Assembly: GCA_017402995.1 (NCBI GenBank)
Contig: JAFQOV010000005.1
Span: forward strand, 1-64,000
DNA from: Candidatus Gastranaerophilales bacterium
Lineage (GTDB): Bacteria; Cyanobacteriota; Vampirovibrionia; Gastranaerophilales; Gastranaerophilaceae
Length of the DNA stretch: 64,000 nt
Direction of reading: 5' to 3'
Part shown: positions 40,593-54,103 of the stretch, piece after piece
Position numbering within the stretch: the first letter of the stretch is position 1
Layout: every line of letters begins with the position of its first letter
Position numbers and translations under genes: made by a program
Notes under the pieces: model-generated
What the model was told of the DNA's origin: nothing
What the model saw: the letters and a program-made list of their open reading frames with translations, nothing else
Databases searched by the model: none

Positions 40593-40741
40593 AATATCTC
40601 CCCAATCGTATAAGTAAATCTAACTACGTTTACATTATGAACCATTTTTTACTTTTTTTCAAATTAATCCTATAAATGTAGTAGTAAAATTTTAACAATT
40701 TCGGCAATTTATTTTTTGATTGTTTCAAATAGACTTTGAAT

Positions 40742-42211
40742 ATGTATAAATTTTTTAAAACAATTTCCGAATCAAATTCTTGTACCCTAAAAGGCGCATG
40801 CACAATCCACCCAAGCGTAAGCGCTCTGTCATTAGTTTTGCAAGAAGAAATAAAAGAAATTGCATATTATCTTGTAAAATTGAAAGAATTAAATTTTTCA
40901 AATCAAGAAATAAATGATTTTTGCATAAGCGCTTTGTCGATTTTTTTAATCAACACAAGCTTTAACAAGAAAAAATATCTGAATTTGGTTAAAGAGCTAA
41001 ATTCAATCAAAATTCAAGCAAAAGAAAAATATATGTCTCATTGCAAGGAAAAAAATATTCCTTGCGAAATGATTAATAATGAATTTGAACTTAAAGACAA
41101 CAATCTTCAAATTTCGCAACTGATTAAACATGCGGAATTTTTAAACATTAATAAACAAAAAAATTGCGAAAAACAAAGGCTTCGCTTATTTGAGTTAATT
41201 GCGCTTTTTGCTAAACTTTGTGCAATTGTTTCAAAGCAAATTAAAAAAGAAAATGGGGAAACAAACGAGCTAAACTATGAAATTTTAAGGTTTTTAGCAC
41301 TTTCAAACAGTTTTTCAATAAGACAAGAAAAATTAAAGCGCAGAATTTTAGAATTTTGTGAAATTTTTGAAAAAGCCTTAAAAAAACTTGATTCCCTAAA
41401 AGAGAAAAACTATGGCGAAAAAACCAGCGCAAAAGTAAACCTCTACCAGCGAAAAGGGCACAGTATCTTAATTTCGGGAGATGACTTATCCGAGCTTAAA
41501 AAACTTTTAGATGACATTGAAGCTTCTAAAAAAGAAAACATAAACGTATATACCCATGGGGCAATGTTTTACGCACATTTTTTCCCAAGCTTTCAAAATA
41601 ATCCATATTTAAAAGGTCACCTAGGCACAAACACCGCCGAATATGACTTTTCAAACTTTCAAGGCGCAATTTTACTAACGCAAAATTTTGTTCAAAAAAT
41701 TGATAGCCTATACCGCGGAGACATCTTTTCAAACAAAATCATTTCGTTTGATAAAGTACTAGACATCAAAAATAATGATTATTTGCCACTTGTTGAAATG
41801 GCTGAAAAAATCAAAGAATTTGACGAAAAAACTATTGAAAAAACTAAAGAAGTTTCATATGACAAAATAAAAATCATTAACTTTTTAAAAACTTTTAGTC
41901 AAGACGAAATCATCATTGTCGTTGGAAATATTGAAAATAGCGAATTTTTTATGGAATACAAAAACAAAAAAGTTTTAAATTTGAATTGCCCTTGCGATAG
42001 CGAAATTATTTTTGAAATAATCGAAATTTTGAGAAATAAACAAGTCAAAATTTCCTTGTTTTTTGCCCAATGCAATGTTATGAATTTAAAAATTATTTTT
42101 GCTTTATTAAATAAAAATTTAAAAGTTTACACAACAAATTGCCCGCATGTTTTAATTAATCCACATGTTGTTGAGGCATTAATCGAAGATTTTAAATTAA
42201 AGATTATTTAA
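40742..42211 (+). CDS. degenerate hybrid-cluster-protein (Hcp) paralogue
   Basis: The 489-residue protein aligns by eye with hybrid-cluster protein over its length. NSCTLKGACTIHPSVSAL corresponds to the end of the N-terminal Fe-S motif. GHSILISGDDLSELKKLL and YTHGAMFYAHFFPSFQNNPYLKGHLG (abridged) match the second domain, and LINPHVVEALIEDFKLK matches the C-terminus. Most ligands are missing: only two of four N-terminal Cys remain, the His of SGHDL is Asp, the Glu of YTHGEM is Ala, and the TTNC cysteine is Phe. It cannot build the normal hybrid Fe-S-O cluster and may have a structural or new role. ATG 40742 is preferred to TTG 40736. Confidence 0.8.
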   Translation: MYKFFKTISESNSCTLKGACTIHPSVSALSLVLQEEIKEIAYYLVKLKELNFSNQEINDFCISALSIFLINTSFNKKKYLNLVKELNSIKIQAKEKYMSHCKEKNIPCEMINNEFELKDNNLQISQLIKHAEFLNINKQKNCEKQRLRLFELIALFAKLCAIVSKQIKKENGETNELNYEILRFLALSNSFSIRQEKLKRRILEFCEIFEKALKKLDSLKEKNYGEKTSAKVNLYQRKGHSILISGDDLSELKKLLDDIEASKKENINVYTHGAMFYAHFFPSFQNNPYLKGHLGTNTAEYDFSNFQGAILLTQNFVQKIDSLYRGDIFSNKIISFDKVLDIKNNDYLPLVEMAEKIKEFDEKTIEKTKEVSYDKIKIINFLKTFSQDEIIIVVGNIENSEFFMEYKNKKVLNLNCPCDSEIIFEIIEILRNKQVKISLFFAQCNVMNLKIIFALLNKNLKVYTTNCPHVLINPHVVEALIEDFKLKII

Positions 42212-45200
42212 AAAATGTCTTTTTTGGAACATAGAAATTAGAAACAGTATCTGTTATGCGGATTTTATTACCATTTTGAGCAACAATTTCGCCGTCTTTA
42301 ACGATATATGTGTTTCCGTCATCTTTAAATTTGCCATCGGCATATATTTTTCTTTTTAAAATTGTTCCGTCGTCTAAGACTGCTCTTTTGTTTTCATCTT
42401 TAATAGGAATAGATTCAATTTGGCAATCGCCATTTTGTTTCACGCCATAATTTGAAATCACGCTAATTGTTTTAGAGCCTGTTTCGTCATATTTAAACAT
42501 TGACCAAAAATCAAGTGCGTTGTTGTTTTTTTCTTCATGTTTAAAATAATTTTCAAGCTCATTAACAACTTCTGGGAAAACTTCATGGTTTGCATTGTCT
42601 GGAGCTACCTTAAGCGTGTTTTGAAGAAAATCGCAACGAGTACTTTTGTTAGAAATTGCCTTGCGAATTTGTTCAAATTTATCTTCAACATTTTCGTTAC
42701 CAATAAAGTTTTTAACGCAAGAAATAAAGTAATTATATTTACCATCATCTGTTTTGCTTGTTGTTGCGTATGGGTTTTCTTGAGCTTGAGACGCTTTTGT
42801 TTCAAGCACAATTGGGAAACCGCCGCGAAGTGCGCTCATGTCTGGTTCTTTATATAAAGAAGTTACAGCTTGCATTTTATTGTAATATTCTTTATAGCCG
42901 TCTGTTTCTTTTAATTCATGAAGAACTTGGTTTCTGTTGCCAACATAAATGTTTTTAGAACCTGTTTCATAGCCAGTTTGAGCAAATTCCATACCGTTAA
43001 ATAAAGTTGGAACGCCAACAAGCGCGCAAGTAACTTGCCACATTTTTTCTTGAAGGTCCATAGAATCTTTTAACATTTCATAGTGGAATTTTAAAACATC
43101 TTTGTCGTCATATTTAATTCCAGATTTATTGAATAAATCTCTGATTGTCACTTCATATGGCAATACGCCGAACGCTTCGGCACGTTTAAACAGATTTTTT
43201 CCGTTTTTATCTTTGCCATTTGTCAAATCTTGAAGAGCTGATTTAAGTTGCGCTTTTTCTTTTGAATTAAATGAAAGCTCATCAATTACTTCGGTCATTT
43301 TTGAAGCAACAGCCACTGCTTTTGCGGAAATATTTTTGTAATCTGTTCTTCCGCCAGTTAATTTTGTTGCTAAATCACGGTATTTTTGATTTTTTGAATC
43401 TGTCAAATCAGTTCTTAAATATAATTCTGTATCTAGTGGCGCAACGTGTAAAACCCTTGGTTTGTCGTGGTTTTCAACAAATACATGAGAATACATTGCG
43501 GTGTTTGGTTGTGCAAATCTTAAGAAATCTTCTGTTTGTTTTTTTAATTTTGCAACATCACCCTTTTCTTTAACTTCACCACGTTCTGGGTCAAGTCCAA
43601 TGAAATTAGATAAATTATTGAAATATTTATCATAGTTTGAATCTGTTGTTGATGATGTTTTTTCAACAAATTGCATTTCTTTTGCATATGGAAGATTGTT
43701 TTCGTAATCATTTCCATATGAAGCGTCTTTTTGAATTTTTGATAAATATTCTTCTGCTAAGTCGCTATCAAAGTCATACATTGAATCAATATCATTCCAA
43801 ACATAAAACTCTGGCAACATTGTAAGCTCATTGATTATATATGAAGATGGATTGCAGGCTCTAATTCTTGAAATAAAATCTGTCCAAAAAGCTTGCACGC
43901 CTTCGTCTTCACCTTGTCCATTCCAAACGGCATCAAGCGTTGTGTCCCCATTTCGAACAGCGTCAAGATCGCCAATATCTTTTGCAGCGTCAAAACGCCA
44001 ATTTAAACCAGCTTTTGAAAAAAGAACAACTTGTTCAGCTTGCATGAAATCTTCAAGAGAAATGTTTTTCAATTCTTTTTTAATTGTATTTTGCAAGCCA
44101 CTAACAGCTTCTGAATTGAATTTAGATTTAATTTCTTCAACAACTTGTCTTCTTTCGATATCAGGCGAGCCAACAGGAGGGTGCAACATTGATTTCAATG
44201 TCACTTTTTTCAATTCGTCTGTTTTAATTTTGCCTTGTTTATCAACTGACTCTGGCGCCATTGAACCAGCGAAAAGTGTCTTAATGATTGTATTTGCATA
44301 TGTTTTAACAACAAATGCTTTATAATCATCATCATTTTGATATCTTTCAGGAATAGCTTCGTTTAAAACATTTTCAATGGTTTCAACGATTGTATCCTCA
44401 AAACCTTTTGCGTATAAGTCATCTTTGAATTTTGGTTGTGCAAAAATCGCACTCAATTCAGGGCTTGTTTCAATAGATTGATATGGAAATTCATCAAGAT
44501 AATCATAAATTGTTTTGTCTTGTTTAAGAACTAATGAATCCATAAATTCTGCGTCAGAAACGATTGCGTCAAACTGTGCTTGAGTTACGTTGTTATTTAA
44601 TGCGATTGCTTTTCTTTCGTCTTGTTTTGCTTTTGCCAAATTCAAAATGAAATCAGATTGAACTGCCTCAGACCAAAAAGTTGCAACACCAAGGATATAA
44701 TCCTTTGCGTCTAACATGCCTTGAATTTTATCAGAATTTTTACCAGGATTTGATAAATTCATTTTGATAATATCTGTATTACCATCCCAAAAAGACGCGC
44801 CAGAAACCTTTGATTTTTCAACAATTCGATATTTTGGGAAAGTTAAAAACTCATCAAGATTTGAAATATCTTTTAAAAGAATTGCATTTTTGTCGCCAAA
44901 TTCTTTAATTTTTTTGTCCGAAATTGGAAGCTCAAAGTAATATGGTTGAATTGAATCTTGATGTCCAACAATTTCATAGTGGTCATCTAATTTTTTATCA
45001 TATGCAACAATTAATTCTTGTGAATTTTGTTGTTCTTTGCTTGATAATCTATCGTCAAAAAATTGAATATATGTAGATTTTGTATCGTCATATTCTTCGC
45101 TATTTGGCGAATTTACAAGCTTAACACCAATATGAGAAAATACTTCGTCATAATTTTCCGAATTTCTATCTGGCAAAATGCCCAGACCAATTTCGCCGCC

Positions 45201-46046
45201 AACTTTTAACATGTTATAAAATGGAGATTCTTCACCCCATTTTAAAATATGTTGAACAAATGGTGATTGAAGGCTTTGAGAGGTGAAAGCACCGTCTGCG
45301 ACATAGCCTTTGCCACGTTTAAACAATTCGTAGTTAAATTCTTTAAAATCATCAATATTTGAACATTGATATTGGTTATTTGGCCAATATTTGTGACTTG
45401 AAGTATTGTCAGCACCAATATCTGGAGTGGTCATAATGTATCTGTATGGATTTAATTCATCTGTATTTTTAAGAAGATAAGTTAAACCCTTAATGTTACC
45501 ACCAAGTTTGTTAAAGTGGTTTCTAACAAATTCAGAATCTTGAGTCATTATTTGACCTTTTGAATTTAAAATGACATCAGAATCTAAAAAGCTATGACGC
45601 ATTGGACCAGCTTTTGGCGTAATGCCATATGTTTCGCCACGGTCAATAAGGTTCATGACCCCTTTTTTGCCTGCAATGTTTATTGTTTTAAATTTATCAA
45701 TTTCAAACCTTGCTTTGTCTGTATCTTTAGAAGCAATTTTATATCTATAAGCGAAAGCGCTTGATTTGCTAGCTTTGTTGAATTTGTCTTGGCTAATTTC
45801 TAATGGTTCATTGCCAACAAAATCAAATTCAAGAATTTCAGTTTCTTTTGGCTCCTTAAAACCTGCCATGCCAACATTTTCTTCTAATGGAACGATTTGC
45901 AAAATAACGCGTTCCTTACTTTGATTGAAAGGAGGAGGGATAAACTTATATACAGGAGTTCCAGATGAGTTATAATCACCCTTCAATCCTTGGAAAGACA
46001 AGTTTTTTTGATTAATTTTATTTATTTTGTTGAACGATAAATCCAT
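42204..46046 (-). CDS. giant GH13-like glycoside hydrolase/transferase
   Basis: This 1280-residue protein has a GH13 catalytic set: nucleophile D686 in LNWRFDAAKD, acid/base E740 in SSYIINEL, and D861 in FVENHDKPR. Region I is probably GKGYVADGAFTSQ (~246-256), so the barrel carries a ~430-residue insertion between regions I and II. The N-terminus has KNLSFQGLKG, the lineage motif, and no signal peptide. GH13 enzymes cleave or transfer alpha-1,4/1,6 glucans. No specific activity is assigned. It is the last gene of a four-gene operon, 44 bases after the smaller GH13 gene, with AAGGAAG before the ATG. It overlaps the convergent Hcp-like gene by eight bases. Confidence 0.8.
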   Translation of the reverse strand: MDLSFNKINKINQKNLSFQGLKGDYNSSGTPVYKFIPPPFNQSKERVILQIVPLEENVGMAGFKEPKETEILEFDFVGNEPLEISQDKFNKASKSSAFAYRYKIASKDTDKARFEIDKFKTINIAGKKGVMNLIDRGETYGITPKAGPMRHSFLDSDVILNSKGQIMTQDSEFVRNHFNKLGGNIKGLTYLLKNTDELNPYRYIMTTPDIGADNTSSHKYWPNNQYQCSNIDDFKEFNYELFKRGKGYVADGAFTSQSLQSPFVQHILKWGEESPFYNMLKVGGEIGLGILPDRNSENYDEVFSHIGVKLVNSPNSEEYDDTKSTYIQFFDDRLSSKEQQNSQELIVAYDKKLDDHYEIVGHQDSIQPYYFELPISDKKIKEFGDKNAILLKDISNLDEFLTFPKYRIVEKSKVSGASFWDGNTDIIKMNLSNPGKNSDKIQGMLDAKDYILGVATFWSEAVQSDFILNLAKAKQDERKAIALNNNVTQAQFDAIVSDAEFMDSLVLKQDKTIYDYLDEFPYQSIETSPELSAIFAQPKFKDDLYAKGFEDTIVETIENVLNEAIPERYQNDDDYKAFVVKTYANTIIKTLFAGSMAPESVDKQGKIKTDELKKVTLKSMLHPPVGSPDIERRQVVEEIKSKFNSEAVSGLQNTIKKELKNISLEDFMQAEQVVLFSKAGLNWRFDAAKDIGDLDAVRNGDTTLDAVWNGQGEDEGVQAFWTDFISRIRACNPSSYIINELTMLPEFYVWNDIDSMYDFDSDLAEEYLSKIQKDASYGNDYENNLPYAKEMQFVEKTSSTTDSNYDKYFNNLSNFIGLDPERGEVKEKGDVAKLKKQTEDFLRFAQPNTAMYSHVFVENHDKPRVLHVAPLDTELYLRTDLTDSKNQKYRDLATKLTGGRTDYKNISAKAVAVASKMTEVIDELSFNSKEKAQLKSALQDLTNGKDKNGKNLFKRAEAFGVLPYEVTIRDLFNKSGIKYDDKDVLKFHYEMLKDSMDLQEKMWQVTCALVGVPTLFNGMEFAQTGYETGSKNIYVGNRNQVLHELKETDGYKEYYNKMQAVTSLYKEPDMSALRGGFPIVLETKASQAQENPYATTSKTDDGKYNYFISCVKNFIGNENVEDKFEQIRKAISNKSTRCDFLQNTLKVAPDNANHEVFPEVVNELENYFKHEEKNNNALDFWSMFKYDETGSKTISVISNYGVKQNGDCQIESIPIKDENKRAVLDDGTILKRKIYADGKFKDDGNTYIVKDGEIVAQNGNKIRITDTVSNFYVPKKTFFK

Positions 46047-46090
46047 AATCTTCCTTTTTAATTTTTTCCCTTCAAACCGAAATTTATAAC

Positions 46091-47980
46091 CTATTTCAAA
46101 TATTGTTGTTGTAAAACATTAACAGGATTTGACAGGTTTTGAATTTCAGGAGCGTCAATTTCAAACACGCAAGCTCTGCTTGAACCAAGCTCTACTGCGA
46201 TTTCGTTTTTCTCAGTATGTTGAATTTTACACTCATCACCATAATTTGGCATCAAATTTTTGAATTTTTGTTCAGGATTTAACCCTGGGATTTCAATTTT
46301 TCCACCAACTCTTTGGTTTACATTACGGTTTCCAATAAATACAAGAGTTTTGCCGTCTTTATGTCTTGCAAAAGCAATGATTTCAGGGTTATTTGTCGGT
46401 AAAACGATAAATGAACCTTTTGTAATTACATCTTGCGCATTTGTCATTTGCAATTTTGTTGCGCTATTTTTATTAACTTCATTATATTTTCCATCTCTTA
46501 AAGAGAAGGCTGTTTTAACAACATTTGAAATCTCAGGACAATCGCCACCTGGTTTTCTTGATTTGTTGAAGATGTCCATTCTGCCTGTATGAACAGTACA
46601 TTCGTGGTTATCTGTTAAAGTGTCTTTAACAAGCGCATGGTCATATGGGAAAATATAATAATCACCAGTTTGAACACCATCTGTCATATATGGGTTTACT
46701 TGTGGCAACATACTTTGCAAAATTGTTGTAAACATTACCCAAGGAGCGCCACCATAAAGCATTGGAGAAGAGTCGTCATGTGTTGCAAAAGAACCAATTA
46801 AAGATTTTGCTTCGCCAATTTGATTGTTCATATCAATATTTTCTTTAACATAGTTATATAATTCATCATTTGTTAACCAGTCGTTGAAAATATGATATTG
46901 ACCATAATAGCTGTCAAAACCAACTTCTAATAATTCTTGTGGTCTATCGTATGGCATATTTAATTGTGGAGAAGCGTCTTCATGGGTATATGTTTCAGCA
47001 AGCCACGCAAATTGTGGGTCTTTTGCTCTTGAATAATTGATAATTACATTCCAAAATTCAACAGGTTTTGCCCTGCCAACGTCAGCTCTAATGCCATCAA
47101 AACCAAGTTCAACGCACATATCGACATATTTTTTGTGCATGTCTAATAAATCTTTATTTAATGAACGATTTTGTTCATCTTCAAAAGGCTTGAACATTCT
47201 AATATCTTGCCAGCCTTTTGGCACTTTTTCTTTACCATCTGCACCAACGGCCATCATCTCAGGGTGTGCTTTTGCAAAGTCTACGCTAGCGCAAGAAGGT
47301 AAATCAAGCATTACCTTGATACCATGTTTGTGACATTCATCAAGATAATATTTACATTGAGCAAAAGCGACTTCTGGGTCATTTTTGTCCATTTTAGTCA
47401 GCTTTTTACCTGTTTTTTGTTCATATAATTGAGCAATTCTACTCCAAGCTTCTTTTGGTGGATTTTCATCAACAAGCTCAGGATCTAATGTTAAGAAATC
47501 TTTTGGAGCATACAAAGAACCTGCTGTTCCCATTGCTTTTGTTTCTCCTGGTGGGTGAATTGGAAGCATGTGTTGCGTATTAAAACCAAGATTTTTAATT
47601 TCATCTAAGCGTCCAACCGCATTCACAAAGTTTCCAGCAACTTCGTTTCCTTGAATTAACTCGTTGCCATCAGTATCTTGAGCATTCATAATTCTTGGAA
47701 TAACAGCTAAAATATTCGCACGGTTTCCAACAAGTGCATCTCTTAAATCATTTTTATAACCAGGAACTCTTTTTTGGGCTTCTGTTAAATTAGCACCTTG
47801 TACAGCATTATTTGGCAAAATTTGTTTTGATTGCGCAATCACAGAAGGACCGACCATTGGGTTGTATCCATTTTGCACATTTTGTACAGCAGGCTGCACA
47901 CTTTGCGCTTGTTGCACTTGAGGTGTTTTTATTTTTAAAGTTTGTGCCAACAATGGACTCATTACTTTGTTAAATTCCAT
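46091..47980 (-). CDS. GH13 alpha-amylase family protein
   Basis: This 629-residue protein has a (beta/alpha)8 amylase barrel with nucleophile D300 (GFDGIRADVGRAKPVEFW), acid/base E329 (FAWLAETYTHED) and the third carboxylate D402 (GSFATHDDS). The RADVGRAKPVEFW context recalls the GlgE maltosyltransferase subfamily (VDNPHTKP..FW). The ~65-residue N-terminus is Gln/Val-rich, begins MEFNKVMSPLLAQTL and lacks a signal peptide, so the enzyme is probably cytoplasmic or exported by another route. A perfect AAAGGAGGTG lies within the end of the preceding gene, and the start overlaps its stop (TAATG). Confidence 0.86.
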   Translation of the reverse strand: MEFNKVMSPLLAQTLKIKTPQVQQAQSVQPAVQNVQNGYNPMVGPSVIAQSKQILPNNAVQGANLTEAQKRVPGYKNDLRDALVGNRANILAVIPRIMNAQDTDGNELIQGNEVAGNFVNAVGRLDEIKNLGFNTQHMLPIHPPGETKAMGTAGSLYAPKDFLTLDPELVDENPPKEAWSRIAQLYEQKTGKKLTKMDKNDPEVAFAQCKYYLDECHKHGIKVMLDLPSCASVDFAKAHPEMMAVGADGKEKVPKGWQDIRMFKPFEDEQNRSLNKDLLDMHKKYVDMCVELGFDGIRADVGRAKPVEFWNVIINYSRAKDPQFAWLAETYTHEDASPQLNMPYDRPQELLEVGFDSYYGQYHIFNDWLTNDELYNYVKENIDMNNQIGEAKSLIGSFATHDDSSPMLYGGAPWVMFTTILQSMLPQVNPYMTDGVQTGDYYIFPYDHALVKDTLTDNHECTVHTGRMDIFNKSRKPGGDCPEISNVVKTAFSLRDGKYNEVNKNSATKLQMTNAQDVITKGSFIVLPTNNPEIIAFARHKDGKTLVFIGNRNVNQRVGGKIEIPGLNPEQKFKNLMPNYGDECKIQHTEKNEIAVELGSSRACVFEIDAPEIQNLSNPVNVLQQQYLK

Positions 47981-50526
47981 TATTTAACACCTCCTTTTTT
48001 GTCTTCAGGATATTCTTTATCAATTTTACCAAATGCAAACTGAGCAAGCAACGTTACGCCAGCAATTCCTGCAGCTATAGGAGCAAAAGTTTTTAACCAA
48101 GTTTTGCTGTTGTATAATTTTGTAGCGTGTTTTTTAACTGCTTCTGTTAAACCACTTGAAAGAATATATTTTCTTGCATTTGGTAATTGTGCGTGTTTTG
48201 ACGCTTCATTAACAAATCTAACTTCTTTTAAATCATCAACAAATTTTGTAATTTCAGGGAAAATTGCCTTTTCTGTTGCAAATTTTGATGAATCAAATAA
48301 TCTTGGAGAAATTGTGTCTAATAATGCACCATCTTTAAAGACTGCATTTGTCATATAGCCACCATTTGCTCTTAAAGACATTGTACTATCGTAAATCATA
48401 TTTCTTGCAGCTTTAATTTCATCTGCTGTCCAATCAGCAAATTCGCCCAATTTTAAGCGTCTTTCAAAGTTTGCGCATAATACTGCTTTTAACTTAGAAG
48501 CTTGAACTTCTGCTAATTTGTTTGTAATTGATTCTTTAATAGCGCCAAGAATTGTTCCTTTTTTCAATGTTGCTTGACCGCTTGAAACAATATTGCCACC
48601 GTCAACTCTTTTTCCAACGCCTTTTTTACCAAAAATTGTATCAGAAATTGAGCCAAGAATTGTGCTGTGTTTGATTTTTGCAATATTATCATCTGCCATT
48701 GCAGTTTCAATTAATTTCATTTGTTCAGGTGTAAATGAATCACCCGCAATGCTTTTGATAAAGTTTTCATATTGAGCTTCATCTTGTACTTTTGTTTTGA
48801 AAATTTCACTCAAAACTTCAACAATATCGCCGTTTTTGCTTTGTGAAATCTCTTTTGCTTTTTTGTAATCTATTCCAAGCTCTTTAAATATTTTTGTCAT
48901 ATTGCCATCGTAAATTTGAGTTGCCAAAGCTTCTTCTTTAGAACCAACTAAAGGATTAAGCGCTTGGACATATTTTTTCAATCTAGCTCTTGAAATTGCT
49001 AAATCTGTTTTGTTATATTCCACAATAGCATTATAAAATTTCGTTAAATCTTCATCAAATAATTGTTTTTTGATTTCAACTGGAATTTCAGAAATATTGT
49101 ATTGTTTTAATACTTTTTCTAGGTTTTCCATTGTAGGTGCTTTTGAAACTTCACGAGTAATTTGCTCAACAATATGTTGAGGAATTTTCTTGTCGCTAAC
49201 ACCTACAACGTTTTTAATAACCGCTGTAATATTTTCTGGATTATATTGAACTTGGTTATCTACAACAAGTTGAGAAACGATTTCTTTAATTTTTTCAGGT
49301 GCTATTTCTTTTTCTTTTAAAACTTTAATTAAATCGCGTTTTGTAGACTCTTCGCTAATAGCGTCAAGGATTTCGTCTAGTTCAACTTGTTGTAATTTTG
49401 TTTTCATGCCAGCAACAAAATTATCTGTGTCTGTATATTCAAGTTGTTCAATAACACCTTTGATTTTTGAAGGATTAATTTCATCTGAACGGCAAGCTTC
49501 GCGCAATGCTTCTAGAGTTTTTCTGACTCTTGAAGTGCTATTTTTTTCGAATAATTTTGCGTCATCAGGATTTAAAAATTCACCATATACATCTTCAACG
49601 CTTAATAATTTTGGCATTCTTTTGTAGAAATATTCATCTGGTTCTTTGTTTTTATAGATATTAGCTAATCTTTCGATTTCTTCTTGATTTCTAATATCTG
49701 GTTTAACGTTTGCCAAGAAATTATCTAGTGCTTGTGTATCTGCAAATACTTTTTTAGATTTTGCTACGCCACTTTTAATCACCGCATTTTTAACATGTGG
49801 TTCTAATCTATTTGAAATTAAAGCAGACATAATTGGAGTTGCAAAACCAGCTGTTGCCATCCATAGAGTTCTATTTTGTAATGCTGTTTTTTGCATTTTT
49901 CTTTGGATTTTTTCATGTCCATTTTTGCTATTAGCATCAATACCCATTTTTTTGCCGATTTCTTCAATTTCTTCTTTAGAATATGCGTCCCAAGGTAAGA
50001 ATTGGTTGTCTAGGAAGAAATCTTTTTTGTCACCTTGTGCGCTAATATATTTTTGTCCAATATCAAAACCGTGTTTAGCTTTTGCAGGAGCATTAATGAA
50101 CAATTTTGGCCATAAACTCATTGAAGCAAGGAAAGCACCGCCACCAATGAATTTCATTATTGCTTCAGTTTTAGTTTTTGAATGAAGAGCTAAAAATGCA
50201 GCAATAACAGCTGCGCCAAATTTCATGCCAAGGTCGTTAATTCTTCCAAGGCGAGTATCGTTCATTTTGCCTGTTTTAACGGCAGTATTGAAGTTTGCAA
50301 TGTCTTTGCCTGTATCTTTAAATGTTGAAACAACGCTTGTTGCAAAATTTTCTTTAACTAATTTTGCTTTTGCTTCGTTTGGGCGAACTTCATTTGCACG
50401 ACGTCTTAAATCTTCATAAACTTTATCATGTTGATTTAAATTTGTGTTAACTACAACAGGATTGCTTTGTTTTGTTGTATTAGTTGCATTTAATCTATTT
50501 TGTAAAAGAGGGCTCATATATGTCAT
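47980..50526 (-). CDS. large membrane-associated protein of unknown function
   Basis: I start at ATG 50526 (848 residues), where GAGGTG precedes and TAATG couples it to the upstream gene. The N-terminus MTYMSPLLQNRLNATN shares MSPLLxQ with the GH13 protein downstream. Hydrophobic segments occur at ~95-140 (GAAVIAAFLAL; FIGGGAFLASMSLWPKLF), ~225-240 (WMATAGFATPIMSALI) and at the C-terminus (FAPIAAGIAGVTLLAQFAF). The central ~500 residues are helical and charged, with repeated EKEIAPEKIKEIVSQL-like units. No family is recognised. It may scaffold the GH13 enzymes at a membrane. Confidence 0.75.
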   Translation of the reverse strand: MTYMSPLLQNRLNATNTTKQSNPVVVNTNLNQHDKVYEDLRRRANEVRPNEAKAKLVKENFATSVVSTFKDTGKDIANFNTAVKTGKMNDTRLGRINDLGMKFGAAVIAAFLALHSKTKTEAIMKFIGGGAFLASMSLWPKLFINAPAKAKHGFDIGQKYISAQGDKKDFFLDNQFLPWDAYSKEEIEEIGKKMGIDANSKNGHEKIQRKMQKTALQNRTLWMATAGFATPIMSALISNRLEPHVKNAVIKSGVAKSKKVFADTQALDNFLANVKPDIRNQEEIERLANIYKNKEPDEYFYKRMPKLLSVEDVYGEFLNPDDAKLFEKNSTSRVRKTLEALREACRSDEINPSKIKGVIEQLEYTDTDNFVAGMKTKLQQVELDEILDAISEESTKRDLIKVLKEKEIAPEKIKEIVSQLVVDNQVQYNPENITAVIKNVVGVSDKKIPQHIVEQITREVSKAPTMENLEKVLKQYNISEIPVEIKKQLFDEDLTKFYNAIVEYNKTDLAISRARLKKYVQALNPLVGSKEEALATQIYDGNMTKIFKELGIDYKKAKEISQSKNGDIVEVLSEIFKTKVQDEAQYENFIKSIAGDSFTPEQMKLIETAMADDNIAKIKHSTILGSISDTIFGKKGVGKRVDGGNIVSSGQATLKKGTILGAIKESITNKLAEVQASKLKAVLCANFERRLKLGEFADWTADEIKAARNMIYDSTMSLRANGGYMTNAVFKDGALLDTISPRLFDSSKFATEKAIFPEITKFVDDLKEVRFVNEASKHAQLPNARKYILSSGLTEAVKKHATKLYNSKTWLKTFAPIAAGIAGVTLLAQFAFGKIDKEYPEDKKGGVK

Positions 50527-51563
50527 TAGCACACCTCGAACTCTCTAGATTCATCAACTCTAGCTTTCATAGTGTCTGGGTTTGTTTTAAAGTTTTTAGA
50601 TGGAATTAACCAAGTAGCCAAAGTTGAAGCAACCGTTGCAATAATCATTGCTTTACCAGCATGTTTTGTGAAAATATTTTTATTTGTTCCCTTCCAAAGC
50701 TGAATTGCAGCCTCTTTAAGAGAATGAAGAATTGTTTTTGCATTTCCTAAAATTGCGCTTGCACCTTTTTCTTTAATTGAATGGAAGTGCATATCGCCAA
50801 ATGCTTTTTGCGCACCAAGAGCAACACCGCAAGCAGCAGCAATATATTTACTGATATTTTCTAGGGCTGTTGTTCTTGCTTTTAATTCTCTAATTTTGTT
50901 GCCCATTGTTTGATTTGGAGCGTTTAATTTTTCTTTAAAGCCTGCTTTTTTAGCGATTTTATCGTTATAGGCATAAATGTCGCCATGATTTAATTCGCTG
51001 TCTTTTTCAAGCAAATCTTTTCTGTAAAAATCAACAGACGAGAAAACTCCGGGGTACTGAGTTCTCACTAGTCCTTGCTCTTGACCATTTTCAGGCAATT
51101 CGTTAACTTTGTTGATATAAAGCATATCTAAGTCAACGCCTGTTGAGTGTTTAATTCCTTTATGTGCTAATTTTGGGGATAAATATTTTCCAACGCCATA
51201 CAACAAAACACCAGCGGCAGCGTTTTTAAACGCTTTTCCTGCGCCAGATGCGTCCATTGCGTTCATTTTTCCTCTTGTTAATCCGTATAGAGCAATTAAA
51301 GTCGCACTACCTGCGATATATGGAATCATGCCCAAAGATAAAAATTCATAAAAATCGCTGTTTTTTGAACCAGCAAAGCCTTTTGGGAAATATGTTAAAA
51401 TGTTGTTTGTAAGTTTATGCGCGCCAGCCTTCACACCCGACAAAGCACCTTGCTTGTGGATATGTGATTCGGTTTTATAGAAGTTTTCCTTCTTTTCTTC
51501 CTTAGAAACCCAATAGCCCACTTTAGGAAGTTTATCAACGCTCGGACCTGTAATTTGTTGCAT
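50526..51563 (-). CDS. membrane protein of unknown function, first gene of the GH13 operon
   Basis: I choose ATG 51563 (345 residues; TTTGGGG upstream, and TATAAT at 51587-51592) over an in-frame TTG at 51578. Hydrophobic segments lie at ~70-90 (LGMIPYIAGSATLIALYGL), ~105-125 (AAAGVLLYGVGKYL), ~235-250 (YIAAACGVALGAQ) and ~300-320 (AMIIATVASTLATWLI). The rest is charged and helical. It resembles the 848-residue protein in general build (short unstructured N-terminus, Ala/Gly-rich helices), and may be a distant relative. No known family is recognised. Confidence 0.72.
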   Translation of the reverse strand: MQQITGPSVDKLPKVGYWVSKEEKKENFYKTESHIHKQGALSGVKAGAHKLTNNILTYFPKGFAGSKNSDFYEFLSLGMIPYIAGSATLIALYGLTRGKMNAMDASGAGKAFKNAAAGVLLYGVGKYLSPKLAHKGIKHSTGVDLDMLYINKVNELPENGQEQGLVRTQYPGVFSSVDFYRKDLLEKDSELNHGDIYAYNDKIAKKAGFKEKLNAPNQTMGNKIRELKARTTALENISKYIAAACGVALGAQKAFGDMHFHSIKEKGASAILGNAKTILHSLKEAAIQLWKGTNKNIFTKHAGKAMIIATVASTLATWLIPSKNFKTNPDTMKARVDESREFEVC

Positions 51564-51742
51564 TTGTACCCCAAACAACTAACACAATTATATAAACAAC
51601 TATAAACGAAAATTTTTGCCTTTTTTCTTTAAATATTCTTAACAATTATTAATATTCTAAATTGCCGTAAAAACTACACTAAAAGAGCTTTTTGAGAATT
51701 TTAAAAAACTTGATTTTTGTTAGTTTTAGAATATTTGTCGTA

Positions 51743-51772
51743 TTGCATAAAATGATGGAATTTATGTACAAT
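51743..51772 (+). promoter_or_regulatory. promoter of the STAND/TPR gene, predicted leaderless
   Basis: TTGCAT (51743-51748), 18 bases, and TACAAT (51767-51772) stand six bases before the ATG at 51779. Confidence 0.55.
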
Positions 51773-51778
51773 AGAGTT

Positions 51779-54103
51779 ATGACGCAAGGTTTTTTTCAAT
51801 TTAATAACAACATTATAAACGAAATATCAGATTTTGGCACTTCGTCTTTTGATTTACTTTTCATCACAGGACAAAAGGGTTCATCAAAAAGCGAAACCAT
51901 GGAAAAAGTTATTCCGCTTCTTGAAGAAAACAATCTGATTTTTCAACATTTTTGCTTTAAAAACACAGTAATTGACGATTTTTTATTAAATTTTTATGAC
52001 GCATTGAGAAGCTTTTCTCTTTCTCAAAAAATCACTTTAAAAAAATATGCAACAGATGATTTTAAAGAAAAAGTCAGCCACTATTTTAAAGCAATCAATA
52101 CAGATTGCATTATCATTATTGAAAATTTTGAACAAGTCGACGAAAATATTGAAATCATTGACTTTTTGTCTCACCTTGCGGGATATGAAAATGTTAAATT
52201 AATTGTAATTTCAAGAAATCAAGAGAAAAATCTTTTCCGATTTAAAAAAATTAAAACAAAAACAATCGCCCTTGAAGGAATTTCAAAAGAAAATTTCAAA
52301 TCTAAACTTGTTGTTTTAACAAACCAACAAGACGAAGAAACCAAAGAAAAATTTTATGAAATTACAAAGGGACTTGAACTTTATTTAAACATGAGCATAA
52401 AATGCGCAAATACTACGGATTCAACAATTAAAGACCTTGTTGATGAGTTTGAGCGCAAAAATATTTTATCAAAAATGGATTTTGAAGAATTTATTGTTTC
52501 AAAATTTGTTTCTTTTGCTCCAAGCACATATAAGGAATTTTTCAAAACTTTGTGCACAATTTCGCACCCAGTTACAAAAACATTTTTAAAAGAATATAAC
52601 CTTGGAGATGTCAGTTTAATTGATTATTTGGCTAAAAACTTCTTAATTAGCTATTTTAAAGATGAAATCTATGTCAAAGACTATTTCAAACAATACATTA
52701 CAAAAACTTTTTCTATTCAAGAAAAAATCACATATTCTCAAAATTTAATTAAAATCTATCAACATGAATTATCTAAAAGCCCAAAAGACAGGCTTTTAAG
52801 GCTTTCAAGAGAAGCTATTAGAAAAGAACTTGAAGACATTGAAAATTCAATGCCTACAATTAACCAAACAAAAACAAAAAATTTCTCATATTTGAGCTCC
52901 TCAAACTCTCTTTGGCAAGAAGAAACAGAGGCAAAGCCTTCTAAATTAGCTGAAAAATTAAATAAAATTAGAGAGAAAAAAGGACTTTTAAAAGAAGAAA
53001 ATAAACTTTCCATCTTCAAAAAATTGTCTGAAACAGTAAAATTTGAAAAAGAAGAAAAAAAAGAAACAGATAGAATGTTTATCATTAATTTGATAAATTC
53101 TTCAAGACAATTTTCAAAATCATATCAATATAAACAAGCGCTCGAAGAGCTTTTACGCGCACTAGAGGCTGATTTTAACAAAGAATTTCATATCGAAATT
53201 TTGTCTTTGATTGCGAAAAATTATGAATATTTAAATAATTATCAAAATGCCAAAAATAGCTTCCAAGAGGCGCTAAAATACGCATACGAACAAAAAGATT
53301 CAAGAATTTGCGAGCTTGAATATTCAATCGCAAGCGCAAACAAAAACTTATATCGAATTGAAGTTGCAAAAGAACAATTCTTAAAAATTGCACAAAACGA
53401 AAACAACACACCAAATTACAGAGCAAAAGCCTATATTGAACTTGGCGAAATGGAAGAGGCAAATGCTTCAATTGACCTTGCAATTAGCTATTATAACTCT
53501 GCTGTTGATTTAAGCATTGGCAAATCAAAGGAAATCACAACAAAAGCCTATTGGCGCTTAGCCGTTTTATATGACGAAAATAGAGATATTGAACAAGCAA
53601 TCAAATTCTATCAAAAAAATTACACAACAAGCTCCGAATTAAAAGAAAATAAATATTATTCATCTTCTTTAACTAACCTTGCTTTAATTTATTCTGAGCT
53701 TGGAAAATTAAGAGAGGCAAGCGAATATTTAAAATTGGCGTTGCTTTTTGACAACGAAATAAACGACCTTGAAAACATGTATTTCTGTCAAAAAGAACTT
53801 GCAAAATTATACACACAAATTGACGAAACAAGCTCTGTGGGCTATTTTAAACAAGCACTTGATACCGCACAAAAACTAAACGACAACTTTAAAGTTGCGC
53901 TTGTCTATTTTGAAGTTGGCGAATATTTTTACGATAGACAAGAAGACGAAAAAGCTTTAAAAAACTTTTTAAATGCAAGACAAGTCTTGAAAAACAACGA
54001 AAAAGACGAAAACGTTATTCGCATTAATTCAAGAATAAATGACATCAAAATGCGCCTTGACGACGCTAGTTTCAAATTAATTTTGGATAAATATGATAAC
54101 TGA
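51779..54103 (+). CDS. STAND-like P-loop NTPase with TPR repeats
   Basis: From ATG 51779 the protein has 774 residues; the longer frame back to 51692 would run through the promoter. A P-loop (GQKGSSKS, ~31-38) and a Walker B-like strand (DCIIIIENFEQVDE, ~117-130) mark an AAA/STAND NTPase. A winged-helix-like region follows, then a charged linker (~370-440). At least six tetratricopeptide repeats cover ~445-760 (YIELGEMEEANASIDLAISYY; YWRLAVLYDENRDIEQAIKFY). Such proteins act as ligand-sensing switches in regulation, signalling or antiphage defence. No effector domain is visible. It overlaps rsmG by 11 bases. Confidence 0.8.
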   Translation: MTQGFFQFNNNIINEISDFGTSSFDLLFITGQKGSSKSETMEKVIPLLEENNLIFQHFCFKNTVIDDFLLNFYDALRSFSLSQKITLKKYATDDFKEKVSHYFKAINTDCIIIIENFEQVDENIEIIDFLSHLAGYENVKLIVISRNQEKNLFRFKKIKTKTIALEGISKENFKSKLVVLTNQQDEETKEKFYEITKGLELYLNMSIKCANTTDSTIKDLVDEFERKNILSKMDFEEFIVSKFVSFAPSTYKEFFKTLCTISHPVTKTFLKEYNLGDVSLIDYLAKNFLISYFKDEIYVKDYFKQYITKTFSIQEKITYSQNLIKIYQHELSKSPKDRLLRLSREAIRKELEDIENSMPTINQTKTKNFSYLSSSNSLWQEETEAKPSKLAEKLNKIREKKGLLKEENKLSIFKKLSETVKFEKEEKKETDRMFIINLINSSRQFSKSYQYKQALEELLRALEADFNKEFHIEILSLIAKNYEYLNNYQNAKNSFQEALKYAYEQKDSRICELEYSIASANKNLYRIEVAKEQFLKIAQNENNTPNYRAKAYIELGEMEEANASIDLAISYYNSAVDLSIGKSKEITTKAYWRLAVLYDENRDIEQAIKFYQKNYTTSSELKENKYYSSSLTNLALIYSELGKLREASEYLKLALLFDNEINDLENMYFCQKELAKLYTQIDETSSVGYFKQALDTAQKLNDNFKVALVYFEVGEYFYDRQEDEKALKNFLNARQVLKNNEKDENVIRINSRINDIKMRLDDASFKLILDKYDN

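Follow-up and report, generated by a model that had tools for sequence, protein, structure and literature searches.

The window analysed here, 64,000 nucleotides in length, comprises positions 1-64000 of contig C2 in the 1.7-Mb genome of a Candidatus Gastranaerophilales bacterium (96% complete). Its minus strand carries four genes that are transcribed in the order P4, P3, P2 and P1. The first gene of the operon, P4 (50526..51563, -), encodes a helical, putative membrane protein of 345 aa, and P3 (47980..50526, -) a putative membrane protein of 848 aa with a conserved N-terminal module, a fast-evolving helical middle part and a C-terminal hydrophobic segment. They are followed by two GH13 proteins, P2 (629 aa; 46091..47980, -) and P1 (1280 aa; 42204..46046, -), the latter GH13_20-like, with an N-terminal beta domain and a helical insertion. 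One-base overlaps (TAATG) join P4 to P3 and P3 to P2, and 44 nt separate P2 from P1; an earlier note on this DNA had described the four reading frames as overlapping or nearly touching, and coordinates and junctions agree with that description. The exact start of P4 is uncertain, an in-frame TTG lying 15 nt upstream. None of the four proteins carries a signal peptide, as also observed earlier, the N-termini of P1 and P2 not being hydrophobic. A promoter scan of the operon gave matches at chance level, and no clear terminator was found 3' of P1.

The cluster is flanked on both sides by genes of the plus strand. The divergent neighbour at 51692-54103 (+) encodes a TPR protein; its N-terminus gives a weak AAA match, and its MalT-like TPR match stays below threshold. 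The gene is kept beside the cluster in the genus and in near relatives, and possibly encodes its regulator. At 40736-42211 (+) lies a relative of the hybrid-cluster protein (hydroxylamine reductase), possibly a divergent or reduced form, for its score is far below the curated cut-off and its match to the model is partial. The cluster neighbours that were scanned gave no match to a bacterial microcompartment shell protein.

As a single sequence, P1 has no Pfam match and retrieves nothing convincing. The profile of its family (32 orthologues) matches cyclomaltodextrinases and neopullulanases (1ea9 at 1.8e-23), and an AF2 model of residues 1-1195 (pLDDT 89, pTM 0.87) predicts a neopullulanase-like GH13 fold, which superposes on 2z1k with a VIA Z of 33.5 (389 residues at 2.4 A); for the debranching enzyme from Nostoc (2wc7/2wkg) the Z is about 30. 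The best fold matches, with TVA I superposed from residue 14 onward, belong to subfamily GH13_20, a placement by fold comparison only in which the insertion is unusual. Along with barrel fold and homology, the catalytic Asp/Glu/Asp is in place, at the positions of the nucleophile (D686; 43989..43991, -), of the acid/base (E740; 43827..43829, -) and of the transition-state stabiliser (D861; 43464..43466, -). These three residues and R684 are invariant in the order-wide alignment and in all six members found outside the order. The insertion (residues 290-676; 44019..45179, -), delimited by alignment and model, is mainly helical, spans about 390 residues and lies between GH13 motifs I and II, so that D251 of motif I is separated by about 430 residues from R684/D686 of motif II. 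Both the catalytic residues and the large insertion had been proposed from the window alone, and both proved correct.

P2 is recognisable as a GH13 relative by its sequence (phmmer E 2.6e-13 to 3dhu). Its family profile finds as best matches the small alpha-amylases 4gkl (2.1e-25) and 3dhu, the Thermotoga maltosyltransferase (1gju) and GlgE (3zss); in Pfam and NCBIfam, no family model scores above its curated cut-off. As for GlgE, or GH13_3, the alignment of P2 with GlgE spans the barrel region only, all NCBIfam models being below cut-off. Because its best matches are amylases, a maltosyltransferase and GlgE at once, the substrate class of P2 is not readable from the sequence. Beside the homology of the barrel, P2 has the catalytic Asp/Glu/Asp, the Arg of motif II and the His of motif IV: D226, R298, D300, E329, H401 and D402 do not vary within the order, and 10 of 11 distant members have them too. 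Of these, D300 (47081..47083, -) occupies the nucleophile position, E329 (46994..46996, -) that of the acid/base and D402 (46775..46777, -) that of the transition-state stabiliser, and the earlier assignment of the three stands. Both P1 and P2 are presumably catalytically active, probably on a glucan. BLASTP gives no match between the two enzymes, and neither of their profiles recognises the other. Elsewhere in the genome (C4, L184:8552-10081), and in relatives, there is a P2 paralogue that does have a signal peptide and is likely a secreted amylase.

The N-terminal MSPLL common to P2 (MSPLLAQTL; 47948..47962, -) and P3 (MSPLLQNRL; 50503..50517, -), to which attention had already been drawn, is real. 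SPxL occurs in both proteins at 20 of 41 loci, all of them near the window's genus. Its candidacy as a general docking motif was dropped, the motif not being present in both proteins beyond that genus and its close neighbours.

P3 and P4 had been described as membrane proteins of no recognisable family with several hydrophobic segments, and this description is borne out. Neither protein matches a family or a solved fold in Pfam, NCBIfam or the PDB, and the known but unrelated family that would have spoken against a single system did not appear there or, for P4, in Foldseek. The two proteins are related to each other: P3 residues 47-250 (49777..50388, -) are homologous to P4 residues 26-263 (50775..51488, -) by profile-profile comparison (probability 97.1, E 5.2e-11), a relationship visible by profiles only, BLASTP of P3 against P4 giving no match. 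The pair therefore derives from one duplicated module, and nearly all invariant columns of P3 fall within its copy of it. Each protein has four moderately hydrophobic segments (mean hydropathy 1.1-1.9), among them, by hydropathy, the C-terminal transmembrane-like segment of P3 (residues 814-832; 48031..48087, -). Charge bias leaves the topology unsettled and, with hydrophobicity only moderate, membrane insertion of P3 and P4 is to be taken as a prediction. The AF2 model of P4 (pLDDT 84, pTM 0.78) shows long helices (102-141, 216-250, 268-291 and 297-326); Foldseek returned no useful match for it and no structural relative standing out. A likeness of P4 to V-ATPase ring subunits (VIA Z 5.5) is within noise for long helices, and the hits of the P3 profile in the PDB, to coiled-coil and designed helical proteins, were put down to composition. 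On the best-supported reading, P3 and P4 are paralogues within a new family of membrane proteins and serve as the platform of a complex.

The four genes form one unit, co-inherited through the order. Among 58 relatives, P3 is found in 50, P4 in 49 and P1 in 48, and P3 is never missing where P4 or P1 is present. P4, P3 and P2 are contiguous in nearly every fetched locus of the order; P1 directly follows the trio in the window's genus and in several others, and is encoded elsewhere in several families. On a wider scale, the P4 profile detects its gene in 204 out of 289 genomes from the class, nearly all of the window's family, usually as a single copy. In two further families of the class P4, P3 and P2 are again adjacent, often with P1 beside them on the opposite strand; in family f15, P1 was not found beside the trio. 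The search for the same synteny in relatives, which the earlier note had proposed as a check, thus finds the genes staying together across the whole order and, beyond it, in other families of the class. The set is absent from six genomes of the order. One of them (G046) is 99% complete and lacks all four genes though two congeners carry them, an apparent joint loss.

In another family of the class, three genera have P3 and P2 fused into single ORFs of 986, 1030 and 1082 aa without internal stop (L287:6229-9189, L291:7820-10912 and L297:7000-10248). In these fusions, about 12 to 57 residues lie between the final hydrophobic segment of the P3 part, which corresponds to the C-terminal segment of P3 in the window, and the start of the GH13 match. 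The fusion links P2 to P3, not P1, and is the strongest single argument that P2 may work attached to P3.

The genome further encodes a canonical GlgA, besides GlgC, GlgX, a GlgB/TreZ-like enzyme, a relative of phosphorylase and a GH77 protein, and a cytoplasmic alpha-glucan is therefore expected. In two distant relatives the gene adjoining the cluster is a starch-synthase-like GT5. Glycogen storage has been inferred for these bacteria (PMC5877343), which are stated to be able to store or ferment glycogen and starch (PMC5877343, PMC3787301, PMC4040986). A search of the literature for the four-gene cluster and for the leader motif described below found nothing on either.

P1 begins with a leader which is predicted to be disordered (residues 1-18 with pLDDT below 50 in the AF2 model, the first strand starting at 21) and in which alignment and model place the motif F18-x-G20 (45987..45995, -). 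This FxG is invariant in the 32 aligned orthologues and kept in 6 of 6 found outside the order. A similar leader is found ahead of the catalytic domain in two divergent GT5 (glycogen) synthases, in a paralogue of phosphoglucomutase (PGM), in a uridine-kinase-like protein and in an adenylate kinase, and is kept in most orthologues inspected; leader-bearing proteins are encoded at L188:324-3296, L222:9675-12005, L196:12658-14346, L201:9615-10535, L224:7316-8107 and L206:14605-17580. The tagged PGM and the GT5 of 990 aa were found in few relatives only, and therefore lie outside the core. The notion that the motif marks alpha-glucan enzymes only was dropped, for it is also carried by many unknown proteins and by proteins unrelated to glucan. 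Over 765 ORFs, from stretches that make up roughly half of the genome, the pattern [VI][SN]F[KSTQ][GA] within N-terminal residues 6-60 was observed 11 times against 1.75 expected, and three control motifs were not enriched in the same test. In a second genus the same pattern was not significantly enriched (1 against 0.16, p 0.15), though tagged proteins are visible there. Because the pattern was set after inspection of the data and is non-significant in the second genus, the motif is treated as a lead, namely as a possible lineage-specific sorting tag.

Taken together, these observations lean, with somewhat better than even probability, towards a single complex, encoded by the four genes and anchored in the membrane, for the processing of alpha-glucan (glycogen or malto-oligosaccharides), most likely at the cytoplasmic face. 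P4 and P3, both built from one helical membrane module, would form the platform, and the C-terminal segment of P3 would hold the GH13 enzyme P2 at the membrane. P1 would be a second GH13 enzyme, of the neopullulanase, cyclomaltodextrinase or debranching type, working with P2 within the same complex; its disordered FxG leader is a plausible docking or sorting signal. At the membrane, beside the ordinary glycogen enzymes of the cell, the two enzymes would cleave or debranch glucan, or transfer its chains. A membrane-organised alpha-glucan machine, such as a storage granule or compartment, had been suggested for these genes at the outset. The single membrane-linked system is upheld by the joint conservation, by the P3-P2 fusion and by the lack of a match of the membrane proteins to a known unrelated family; the granule or compartment is no more than a possibility, suggested by the leader motif of the P1 type that recurs on several of the genome's alpha-glucan enzymes.

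Other explanations have to be weighed against this complex. That the genes merely share an operon, with no joint function, would fit the separate location of P1 in several families, yet it is hard to reconcile with the joint presence and absence of the genes and with their adjacency across families of the class, and the fusion in three genera disfavours it strongly; I regard it as very improbable. A machine of the envelope is conceivable as well, in which P3 and P4 assemble or take up alpha-glucan, with the GH13 proteins trimming it while it is being assembled or enters the cell. Cyclomaltodextrinases of the GH13_20 type often act behind maltodextrin uptake, and the genome does encode a secreted P2 paralogue with a signal peptide (L184:8552-10081); but P3 and P4 have few hydrophobic segments and no transporter or glycosyltransferase among their relatives, and the four proteins are devoid of signal peptides, which makes this explanation unlikely.

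The leader motif opens a further possibility, to which I assign a smallish chance: the FxG leader would be a sorting tag peculiar to this lineage, by which a second set of enzymes for alpha-glucan and nucleotides (P1, the divergent GT5 synthases, phosphoglucomutase and adenylate kinase) reaches a compartment or leaves the cell, with P3 and P4 as membrane receptor or gate of the destination. The invariance of FxG within a disordered leader of P1, the enrichment of the pattern over unenriched controls, and the recurrence of the tag on the two GT5, the PGM paralogue, the uridine-kinase-like protein and the adenylate kinase, in most orthologues inspected, all speak for such relocation. Yet the pattern is a post hoc one without significance in the second genus, the tagged PGM and the 990-aa GT5 are confined to few relatives, and proteins foreign to glucan metabolism bear the motif too. 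A bolder version is a long shot: Gastranaerophilales and their relatives would have a hitherto undescribed site, at the membrane or behind it, with P3 and P4 as platform, the leader directing private alpha-glucan, phosphosugar and nucleotide enzymes to it, and the four-gene cluster as its core.

The membrane-anchored complex, which I prefer, resembles known systems in part. P1 has the barrel, the N-terminal beta domain and the catalytic triad of the GH13_20 neopullulanases, cyclomaltodextrinases and maltogenic amylases (2z1k, 1ea9, 1sma, TVA I and II) and of NPDE from Nostoc punctiforme (2wc7, 2wkg), but differs from them in its low identity (16-22%), its helical insertion of ~390 residues, its invariant disordered FxG leader and its genetic link to membrane proteins. 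Likewise, P2 shares its catalytic motifs with the small GH13 alpha-amylases (4gkl, 3dhu), the Thermotoga maltosyltransferase (1gju) and GlgE (3zss), and unlike them has a membrane protein as fusion partner or operon neighbour, and falls below every curated family cut-off. In animals, the SLC3 heavy chains (rBAT, 4F2hc) are membrane-anchored GH13-like proteins with an extracellular domain, serving amino-acid transporters. The arrangement of a GH13-type domain directly after a transmembrane segment is similar, but the anchor here comes from a bacterial family with no relation to it, and the catalytic residues are preserved. Along another line, the enzymes of chlamydial glycogen metabolism are reported to work outside the bacterial cytosol (PMC4829429, PMC3722199). 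The likeness would lie in a location outside the usual cytosolic place; in the present case no secretion route emerged, the leader motif is a different one, and relocation is hypothetical.

To conclude, the four-gene cluster suggests a previously undescribed, membrane-level way of organising the storage or use of sugar. Nearly all members of a major group of gut bacteria carry its genes, and two of the four belong to families without known relatives. A membrane-tethered pair of GH13 enzymes, if true, would be a new organisation of intracellular glucan use, and the fusion protein, the paralogous membrane module and the leader motif are concrete starting points for studying the cell biology of these bacteria, which are related to cyanobacteria but non-photosynthetic.
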